Below are positions 18,223 through 63,458 of a stretch of 64,000 bases of DNA, in pieces. A model generated the notes under the pieces. The model saw only the letters and a program-made list of their open reading frames with translations, was not told where the DNA came from and did not search any database. The stretch comes from Bacillota bacterium (GTDB lineage Bacteria; Bacillota; Clostridia; Oscillospirales; CAG-382): positions 1 through 64,000 of the forward strand of contig JAKPGJ010000007.1 in NCBI GenBank assembly GCA_029550965.1. Direction: 5' to 3'. The position numbers and the translations under genes were made by a program. Numbering within the stretch: the first letter of the stretch is position 1; each line of letters starts with the position of its first letter.

Positions 18223-19107
18223 ATGAACATAGAAATCGCAAACAGACTGTATCAGTACCGCAAAAGGTTCAACCTATCACAGGAAGAACTCGCGGAAAAG
18301 CTGGGGATTTCTCGTCAGGCGGTTTCCAAATGGGAGCGCGCCGAGGCGTCGCCAGATACGGAAAATCTGATTAATCTCGCCAAACTGTACGGTGTTACGA
18401 TAGACGAACTGCTCAATAAAGACCCGCAGGACGAAATAAGCAAAAATAAAGAAGCGAATCCGTCCGCAACGGATACATCCGCAACGGGAGCATCCGTAAC
18501 GGATACACCCGTAACGGAAGCATCCGCAACAGATACATCCGCATCGGATACATCCGCAACGGAAAACAAGTCCGAAACGCAATCTTCTTCCGCAGCGGAC
18601 GCGTCCGCGTCATCGAGTACGGAAAACACCGATTCGGCCGAAAGCGAGCGTTCTAAAAAAACCGCAAAGGTCATTCTTGGCAAAGACGGAATCCAGGTCC
18701 AGAAAAACGATAGTGTCGTGCAAATTGATTTTAAAAGCTTGGAAGGCATTATCGGGAGCGACTTTGTGAAGGTCGCTCCGGACATCGCCAAGCCCGTAAA
18801 GGAGTATAAGATTTCGCTGGGCAAAAAGCGGAAGTGGATAGAGGCTCCCGTTGCGATTCTCGTCGTAATCGCCTATTTGGTAATCGGTTCGGTTTGGGAT
18901 CTGTGGCATCCGGGCTGGCTTCTTTTCCCGATGATACCCGTAATCAGCGGCGTAATTCGGGCAATCGAAAAACGCAGGTTAAAAGAAATCCCCTACCCGA
19001 TTGTTGCCGTAGTGGTTTTTCTTCTGCTTGGTTTTCTCTTCGAGCTGTGGCATCCGGGATGGATAATCTTTCTGACCATACCGGTGTTCTACTGGCTGGC
19101 AGATTAA
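18223..19107 (+). CDS. XRE-family regulator with membrane domain
   Basis: A 294-residue protein with an N-terminal Cro/C1 helix-turn-helix (residues 5-60: LSQEELAEKLGISRQAVSKW), a Ser/Thr/Ala-rich linker (about 80-145) made of five-residue repeats, a small folded region (about 150-205) and a C-terminal membrane domain with two copies of an LWHPGW motif (WDLWHPGWLLFP and FELWHPGWIIFL) each inside a hydrophobic segment. A DNA-binding protein tethered to the membrane suggests it senses envelope conditions. It possibly regulates its own operon. Targets are unknown. Confidence 0.8.
   Translation: MNIEIANRLYQYRKRFNLSQEELAEKLGISRQAVSKWERAEASPDTENLINLAKLYGVTIDELLNKDPQDEISKNKEANPSATDTSATGASVTDTPVTEASATDTSASDTSATENKSETQSSSAADASASSSTENTDSAESERSKKTAKVILGKDGIQVQKNDSVVQIDFKSLEGIIGSDFVKVAPDIAKPVKEYKISLGKKRKWIEAPVAILVVIAYLVIGSVWDLWHPGWLLFPMIPVISGVIRAIEKRRLKEIPYPIVAVVVFLLLGFLFELWHPGWIIFLTIPVFYWLAD
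18466..18555 (+). repeat. 15-bp coding tandem repeat in the XRE linker
   Basis: Six in-frame 15-base units of the type GCAACGGATACATCC, encoding variants of Ala-Thr-Asp-Thr-Ser. Units differ at one to four bases. It is not a CRISPR: there are no spacers and the repeats are translated. Confidence 0.85.
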
Positions 19108-61577: not shown

Positions 61578-61727
61578 ATGAGAGTAAAAATCACAATGGT
61601 TTGCAGCGAGTGCAAACAGCGAAACTACGATACCATGAAGAACAAGAAGAACGATCCGGACAGACTTGAAATGAAAAAGTACTGCAGATTCTGCCGCAAG
61701 CACACTCTCCATAAAGAGAGCAAGTGA
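61578..61727 (+). CDS. rpmG: 50S ribosomal protein L33
   Basis: A 49-residue L33, [20 protein letters not shown], with two CxxC pairs (CSEC and CRFC): the zinc-containing form. Conserved position before secE. GGAGGTG lies 10 bases before ATG; an extra GGGAGG site just upstream would serve a TTG-started frame that I consider spurious. Confidence 0.96.
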
Positions 61728-61736
61728 GGTGGAAGT

Positions 61737-62279
61737 ATGTTTTATAGCAAACTCAAATCACTGCTTGCGTTCGCGCTTGTGCTTTTGCTTTCCTGTTCTT
61801 TCGCGGTATTTGCTCACGCTGAAGAGAATTCGGACGTAGTTTCTTCAGAATCTGCGGTTTCCGAAACGCAGTCGGAAACTTCTGACGACAGCGCCGTATC
61901 CGAGGACGAATCGAAGGATGCCTCGTCGGATGCGTCGGAAGCTGAAAGCGAAACTTCTGCGGAAAGCAGCGCCGCCGGCGACGTAAGCGAAGAGGATACT
62001 TCCTCCGGTGCTCCGGGTTGGCTTGGCTGGGCGATAGCAGGCGGAGTAATCGTAGTAATTGCTCTCTGGATATTCATTTCAATCAAGAGAAAAACGCCTT
62101 TTGGTCAGAAGGTAGTTAAGTTCTTCAAGGATTACAAGAGTGAAATCGGAAAAGTAGTCTGGCTTTCTAAAGAAGATCTTGTTAAAAAGACAGTCGTCGT
62201 TCTTGTTACGATCATCATCGCATGTATCGTAATCGGTTTTCTTGACTGGGCGTTTACAAAGCTGATTACTTTGATATAA
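61737..62279 (+). CDS. secE: SecE with N-terminal signal-like segment and acidic Ser-rich external region
   Basis: A 180-residue protein whose last 60 residues (121-180) are a canonical SecE: amphipathic FGQKVVKFFKDYKSEIGKVV, W142, KEDLVKKT and a membrane helix (152-176). The usual WP is WL. Firmicute SecE is normally about 60-75 residues. Here 120 residues precede it: a signal-peptide-like start with AHA-EE (about 26-30), an extremely Ser/Glu/Asp/Ala-rich stretch (29-92) with a single Lys, and an extra helix (95-115). Predicted topology resembles three-helix SecE with a 65-residue outside loop. The position between rpmG and nusG confirms identity. GAGGTGG overlaps the rpmG stop. Confidence 0.9.
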   Translation: MFYSKLKSLLAFALVLLLSCSFAVFAHAEENSDVVSSESAVSETQSETSDDSAVSEDESKDASSDASEAESETSAESSAAGDVSEEDTSSGAPGWLGWAIAGGVIVVIALWIFISIKRKTPFGQKVVKFFKDYKSEIGKVVWLSKEDLVKKTVVVLVTIIIACIVIGFLDWAFTKLITLI

Positions 62280-62368: not shown

Positions 62369-62905
62369 ATGGGATTACCGCAGGATACGACTCCGCACTG
62401 GTATGTTGTTCACACATACTCCGGCTACGAGAACAAAGTAAAATCGAATATAGAGAAAATCGTAGAAAACCGCAATCTCGGACATTTAATTCTGGAAGTA
62501 AAAATCCCTGTTGAAAAGGTAATCGAATCCGACAGCAAGGGAGAAAAGGAAATCGAACGCAAATTGTTCCCGAGTTATGTCCTTGTAAAAATGGTTATGA
62601 ACGACGAGAGCTGGCATGTTATTCGAAACACTACCGGTGTTACAGGTTTTGTAGGTCCCGGAAGCAAACCGGTTCCCCTTACCGACGCAGAGGTAGAAGC
62701 TCTCGGTGTAGAAACCAAAGTGATTGAAATCAAGTACGCTGTCGGCGACAGCGTAAGAATCTGCGATGGACCGTTATCCGGCTTCGTCGGCGTTGTAGAC
62801 GATATCTCGCCAGACAAGAAGAAGGTTACCGTTACCGCTTCCATGTTCGGCAGAGAAACAAAAGTCGAGCTCGACTCCATGCAGGTTAAACCGTTAGACG
62901 ATTAA
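62369..62905 (+). CDS. nusG: Transcription termination/antitermination factor NusG
   Basis: A 178-residue NusG: NGN domain (HWYVVHTYSGYENKVKSNIE, PVEKVIE, KLFPSYVLVKMVM, VRNTTGVTGFVG-like IRNTTGVTGFVGP) and C-terminal KOW domain (VGDSVRICDGPLSGFVGVVDDI). The start at ATG 62369 with GGAG 7 bases upstream; an upstream TTG lies within that site. Confidence 0.97.
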   Translation: MGLPQDTTPHWYVVHTYSGYENKVKSNIEKIVENRNLGHLILEVKIPVEKVIESDSKGEKEIERKLFPSYVLVKMVMNDESWHVIRNTTGVTGFVGPGSKPVPLTDAEVEALGVETKVIEIKYAVGDSVRICDGPLSGFVGVVDDISPDKKKVTVTASMFGRETKVELDSMQVKPLDD

Positions 62906-63032: not shown

Positions 63033-63458
63033 ATGGCAAAAAAGGTTATAGGTTATATTAAACTTCAACTGCCGGCTGGAAAGGCAACGCCGCAACCCCC
63101 GGTAGGTCCCGCGCTTGGTCAGTACGGCGTAGCGATTCCGATGTTTACGAAGGAATTCAACGAGCGCACAAAGAACGACATCGGTATGATTATACCGGTT
63201 ATTATCACTGTTTACGCAGACCGCAGCTTCACATTCATTACAAAGACTCCGCCCGCGGCAGTTCTTATCAAGAAGGCTTGCGGAATCGAGAGCGGCAGTC
63301 CGAAACCCAACTCGACAAAAGTAGCTCAGATCACAAAAGAGCAGATCAGAAAAATTGCTGAACAGAAAATGCCCGACCTCAACGCGGCTTCCATCGAGGC
63401 AGCTATGAGCATGATTGCCGGTACGGCCCGCAGCATGGGCGTTACGGTTGTAGATTAA
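63033..63458 (+). CDS. rplK: 50S ribosomal protein L11
   Basis: A 141-residue L11: [37 protein letters not shown] (usually GQHGVNIMxF), [11 protein letters not shown] and C-terminal RNA-binding GTARSMGV. Binds the GTPase-associated centre of 23S rRNA. GGAGGTG lies 9 bases before ATG 63033; upstream in-frame codons were excluded. Confidence 0.96.

Follow-up and report, generated by a model that had tools for sequence, protein, structure and literature searches.

Which features of a SecE protein can change, given that SecYEG ranks with the most conserved machines in biology and SecE is often seen as its minimal clamp? The known SecE of Gram-positive bacteria is a tail-anchored protein of about 60-90 amino acids with a single helix and without a signal sequence (PMC3087755), which bears out the premise of the preliminary description that the SecE of Firmicutes is usually very small; it also lacks a signal as a rule. 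The secE gene at positions 61737-62279 (forward strand) of the window, i.e., the whole analysed stretch of 64,000 nucleotides, raises the question because it encodes a long form of 180 amino acids. The gene starts with an ATG at 61737, comprises 180 codons, and is the sole SecE gene across the 2.07 Mb assembly. According to the list of open reading frames and the sequence, its upstream neighbour is rpmG for ribosomal protein L33 (61578-61727, forward strand), whose stop codon (61725-61727) is separated from the secE ATG by 9 bases. A Shine-Dalgarno-like GAGGTGG (61726-61732, forward strand) was rated as a good ribosome-binding site by start-site scoring. Downstream follow nusG (62369-62905) and rplK (63033-63458), both on the forward strand. 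The resulting order rpmG-secE-nusG-rplK is the standard one.

Four parts can be distinguished in the protein. Residues 1-28 (61737-61820, forward strand) consist of MFYSKLK, a hydrophobic stretch, and an AHA end that directly precedes two Glu residues (AHA|EE). On the basis of hydropathy, they resemble a signal peptide with a basic n-region, and cleavage is predicted before E29. Residues 29-93 (61821-62015, forward strand) form a segment of 65 residues, among them 20 Ser, 13 Glu, 8 Asp, 9 Ala, and one Lys, with a net charge of -20; this segment, henceforth the brush, is predicted to be disordered and external. Residues 95-116 (62019-62084, forward strand) represent an added transmembrane helix according to hydropathy, AlphaFold2, and conservation in long relatives. 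Its predicted orientation is N-out/C-in, as indicated by the basic residues (KRK) directly C-terminal of it. The SecE core, residues 127-180 (62115-62276, forward strand), is composed of a cytosolic amphipathic helix, a WLS hinge replacing the usual WP, and the clamp transmembrane helix. It was recognised by the Pfam SecE family PF00584 (E 2e-14, 53.6 bits, cut-off 22.7), by the NCBIfam model TIGR00964 (49 bits, cut-off 27.55), by SecE chains in the PDB, and by comparison of the hinge; the core residues of SecE are conserved among the aligned long forms. Thus, the gene and the order of its parts are confirmed and the layout is well supported by the sequence, including all three features pointed out in the preliminary description: the signal-like N-terminus, the acidic Ser-rich segment nearly devoid of positive charge (21 acidic residues versus one Lys), and the extra helix ahead of a normal SecE core.

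Hydropathy analysis revealed three hydrophobic segments, the first of them signal-like. A low-confidence single-chain AlphaFold2 model (mean pLDDT 54) contained helices at residues 2-34, 95-119, 121-137, and 145-179, and neither structure nor helix at residues 35-94. According to the sequence and this low-confidence model, the disordered stretch runs directly into the added helix, with no folded domain in between. No DNA tandem repeat was found in the acidic segment of secE, and its 20 Ser residues are coded by TCG, AGC, TCT, TCC, and TCA, i.e., by both the TCN and the AGY group. The segment is therefore neither a recent slippage product nor a reading-frame accident, and a recent slippage repeat was rejected as its origin. 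We also rejected the classification as a lipoprotein. A cysteine at position 20 (LL[STA]C) is shared by members of genus g1 only; g6 and most of g2 lack it at this position, and the hydrophobic stretch and the AxA motif come after C20, so that the sequence does not constitute a lipobox.

To map the extension, we analysed SecE in related Clostridia. The sample of the bacterium's own GTDB family, f1, comprised 63 genomes, 52 of which yielded a SecE. The long layout is present in 27 of these 52 (26 besides the one studied here) and is spread over three genera, namely all three genomes of g1, all 18 g2 genomes that yielded a SecE (one gene truncated by the end of its contig), and six out of seven of g6. 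The remaining 25 genomes encode an ordinary SecE of 65-87 amino acids that lacks the layout. A profile of the long form also matched SecE in a second family of this order, f19, namely in 12 of the 45 genomes sampled; ten of them have signal and helix, and two (G304 and G349) have the helix only. The SecE proteins of the latter two (L118, L119) carry the extra helix behind a short N-terminal stretch without signal peptide, and both genomes are sister to G354, which has a signal and a Thr-rich brush. Thr in place of Ser dominates several f19 brushes. Among the matches listed for samples of the class (392 genomes) and the phylum (398 genomes), there was no other full-length match to the long-form profile. 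The long layout is thus not a one-genome freak but recurs across related bacteria. Two slightly different SecE genes (L008 and L058) were detected on separate contigs of G050, a genome with 6% contamination, which probably reflects a mixed bin.

Trait changes were counted on a NusG+RplK tree with 121 rows. The long layout was gained or lost at least seven times, three times within f1 and four times within f19; a single clade of the f1 long forms was not rejected on this tree (AU p 0.057). When scored against the f1 helix profile, 10 of the 12 f19 helices remained at background level, and two (G334 and G299) reached 15-19 bits. The alignment of the long forms revealed a common helix, which in most cases begins with Pro-Trp, and a common helix-to-core linker, while the brush was unalignable. 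The added helix is present in every one of the 39 long and helix-only forms, and the signal is nearly always there. The brush ranges from nearly 0 (G006, G262, and G274) to about 110 amino acids, with a median length of 68 and a median net charge of -18 in f1. The helix is therefore the constant part of these proteins and the brush the most variable one, and close relatives (G025/G026 and G014/G016) differ in it by whole repeat units. Seven relatives have at least three His residues in the brush, often as DHDHDH, which is suggestive of metal binding. His-rich runs such as DHDHDHDH and HDHS occur in the genus g2 proteins L019, L028, L037, L038, L041, L042, and L043.

The loss of the proline of the WP hinge (window positions 62160-62168) is shared with many relatives. 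Within f1, it affects 24 of 27 long versus 0 of 24 short SecE proteins. Every short SecE read from f16 lacks the proline too, and so does most of f19. As f16 lost the proline without acquiring an extra helix, and tree-based pairs gave a p of about 0.6, we rejected its loss as a companion of the helix. Other long SecE forms were observed as well. Those of f22 (genera g45 and g90; L059, L060, L063, L064, and L069) have approximately four extra transmembrane helices ahead of the SecE core, and one of them matched DUF4293 below the threshold (E 3e-5). In f16, SecE L080 (G126) carries several extra N-terminal helices without a known domain, and this form is apparently independent of that in f22.

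Three agreeing lines of evidence place the brush outside the membrane: the signal peptide together with the positive-inside charges, the conservation of the layout, and a composition largely limited to exported proteins. In all 36 readable long relatives, pattern matching and inspection revealed a short, basic n-region with Lys or Arg and a small-x-Ala ending right before Asp or Glu. The latter pattern suggests signal cleavage; the genome encodes a type I signal peptidase, and the signal peptide is probably removed before E29 or nearby. As a background for the composition, we used a 386 kb sample of the same genome, in which signals were called by a crude hydropathy rule. Acidic Ser/Thr-rich segments occurred in 8 of 53 signal-bearing versus 1 of 254 soluble proteins (Fisher 4e-6). 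Acidic linkers akin to the brush were also found in other, unrelated exported proteins of this genome. Thus, linkers rich in acidic residues and Ser are a general trait of its exported proteins, and the brush composition may be a matter of linker style. A helix-turn-helix protein encoded in the window (18223-19104, forward strand) is predicted to have a membrane segment and contains an acidic stretch rich in Thr, Ser, and Asp with ATDTS repeats. The preliminary description had envisaged an acidic brush outside the cell at the exit of the channel. The three lines provide good support for the external location, and the position at the exit side, like cleavage, topology, and function of the brush, is what we infer.

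Acidic segments are not special to SecE, because SecG of f1 nearly always has a comparable tail. SecG was found in 58 of 63 f1 genomes, including all three of g1, and its absence from the others is compatible with incomplete genomes. Defining a tail as a C-terminal segment of at least 15 residues with a net charge of -4 or lower, we detected an acidic tail in 44 of 47 f1 genomes, with a median of 55 amino acids and a net charge of -13. The SecG tail of the bacterium itself has 44-50 residues, depending on which of two ways of counting is used, nine of them acidic. SecG tails are also present in genera with a short SecE. The acidic Ser/Glu-rich disordered tails of SecG (L133 at G000:C33:60511-61920, minus strand, L129-L152, and L203-L237) measure about 20-110 residues. 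Since SecG has two helices connected by a cytosolic loop (PMC8082313), the tails are predicted to face outward and be external. An acidic, presumably outer fringe on small translocon subunits is thus widespread in f1, and three of its genera have added the SecE brush. Beyond f1, such tails occur in 20 of 38 genomes of f19 and 0 of 5 of f22, and many f19 genomes have neither a SecE brush nor a SecG tail. In G270 (f24), the SecG tail (L173) comprises approximately 93 residues, mostly serine. Two relationships between the subunits were rejected. A replacement of SecG by the extra SecE helix is at odds with the presence of SecG in most f1 and all g1 genomes. SecE brush and SecG tail appeared to be mutually exclusive in f19 (Fisher 0.011), but independent tree pairs gave a p of about 1 for such an alternation.

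Our preferred reading, held tentatively and with a little less than even confidence, is that a normal SecE clamp has acquired an added N-out helix by which a passive, polyanionic brush is tethered where the channel opens to the outside. The signal peptide would export the N-terminus and would then probably be removed, and approximately 65 disordered acidic residues would hang on the outer face. The added helix would bring the chain back to the cytosol and thereby anchor the brush beside the channel exit, and the amphipathic helix and the clamp helix would hold SecY as in ordinary SecE. With the f1 SecG tail as a second acidic tail at the exit, a polyanionic zone would arise. The brush would act passively by crowding and charging the exit and by concentrating cations. 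It might also hold basic parts of emerging chains weakly and non-specifically, which would keep them soluble and prevent back-sliding. A passive polyanion role is favoured by an acidity that has persisted although the sequence drifted, by the occurrence of acidic segments on two subunits, and by the His-Asp runs in seven relatives. In Gram-positive bacteria, the release of some secreted enzymes depends on an interaction with cations (PMC12445088). One slow step of export is the passage of positively charged residues (PMC9110029). Cation binding, as proposed in the preliminary description, has become more plausible through the His-Asp runs and the analogy to the acidic tail of TRAPα, and the binding itself is a prediction.

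The main rival, which we consider quite possible, reverses the roles of the two additions. The helix would be the functional part, located peripherally beside SecY like TM2 of E. coli SecE; the signal would only serve to export the N-terminus of the helix, and the brush would be a loose spacer that grows and shrinks through repeat changes. This reading gains its rank from the pattern of losses, which most often strike the brush and spare the helix. The nearly absent brush in G006, G262, and G274 and the helix alone in G304 and G349 indicate that the brush is dispensable and the helix is not. A spacer would also fit the constancy of the helix in all 39 proteins, the whole repeat units that separate close relatives, and the similar linkers in unrelated exported proteins; moreover, the PDB and NCBIfam matches reach into TM2 of three-helix SecE. 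However, the composition is acidic and poor in Lys and Arg in almost all members, the same kind of segment is attached to SecG in 44 of 47 f1 genomes, and the mixed Ser codons of the segment studied here do not indicate a fresh repeat.

Another possibility is that the signal remains uncleaved, which would result in a three-helix SecE of the E. coli layout with a TM1-TM2 loop that has grown acidic. Number and direction of the segments are as in E. coli SecE (PMC3087755), and the spacing from helix to core is similar. The small-x-Ala pattern directly ahead of the acidic start and the short, basic n-region, however, are found without exception in the readable long relatives. Furthermore, the f1 helix profile scored 3.3 bits against E. 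coli TM2, which is about the 95th percentile of unrelated helices (3.2 bits for 177 helices). We therefore regard an uncleaved signal as improbable. The suggestion of the preliminary description that the external segment might be cut away and freed as a separate peptide did not hold up and is very improbable; it draws on nothing but the exposed, flexible nature of the segment, whereas the added helix follows the brush and tethers it in every member, and the alignment of the long forms lacks a conserved site ahead of the helix. The weakest alternative, a gene-model artefact in which the real SecE is short, as is the rule in Firmicutes, and begins internally, has a next to negligible chance: neither codons 83-135 of the secE frame nor the in-frame sequence upstream of the SecE core in G008, G026, and G364 contain an ATG, GTG, or TTG, the long start has a good ribosome-binding site, and the protein layout is kept across genera, so that the internal start considered in the preliminary description is ruled out for this gene with standard codons.

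By every tested family feature, the protein is a SecE, yet it is not the described Gram-positive type. A literature search on SecE extensions, acidic segments of the translocon, and SecG tails, which was not exhaustive and had most subscription journals outside its reach, yielded no description of the layout. Within that scope, and with an occurrence in three f1 genera and part of f19, the extension does not represent a common, already described feature of the order. The clade appears to have altered the insertion of SecE, which would be exported and probably processed, and to have put a charged brush at the exit, and SecG seems to reach much the same acidic exit design independently. A broader idea, which we judge rather unlikely, is that the translocon of this lineage bears an exit-side polyanion under selection, on SecE, SecG, or both, as a functional counterpart of the TRAPα acidic tail. 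On SecE, this would mean that the subunit needs export and trimming by existing channels before it can build a new one, so that channel number could sense channel capacity. With long, short, and brush-less forms occurring naturally in related genera, a small bacterial system would be available to test what charge on the exit side does.

How does this SecE compare with known systems? With the B. subtilis type, it shares the core of amphipathic and clamp helix, the gene order, and the presence as the only copy, but it adds the signal peptide, the acidic external segment, and the extra helix and has lost the hinge proline. It thus departs from the tail-anchored single-helix SecE, which is characterised by one transmembrane helix and the lack of a signal. 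In the three-helix SecE of E. coli, the last helix pair runs in the same direction with roughly the same spacing to the core; however, TM1 is not a cleavable signal, and the TM1-TM2 loop comprises only a few residues. The f1 SecG tail is likewise a disordered, acidic Ser/Glu-rich segment on the predicted outer face of the same complex, but it is C-terminal, needs no signal peptide, and is nearly universal in f1, including the genomes with short SecE. In terms of design, the nearest analogue may be the acidic N-tail of TRAPα (SSR1). This tail lies near Sec61 and is described as extraordinarily long; calcium binding by TRAPα is heavy, and no further function of the tail is known (PMC11186639). 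Both proteins would combine a signal peptide, a long acidic N-tail, one helix, and a cytosolic C-terminal part, with the place at the exit side being predicted for SecE. The two are not homologous, as the PDB match between them (E 0.19) reflects composition only. Unlike TRAPα, the SecE described here has no lumenal folded domain, and its tail forms one chain with a subunit of the channel.
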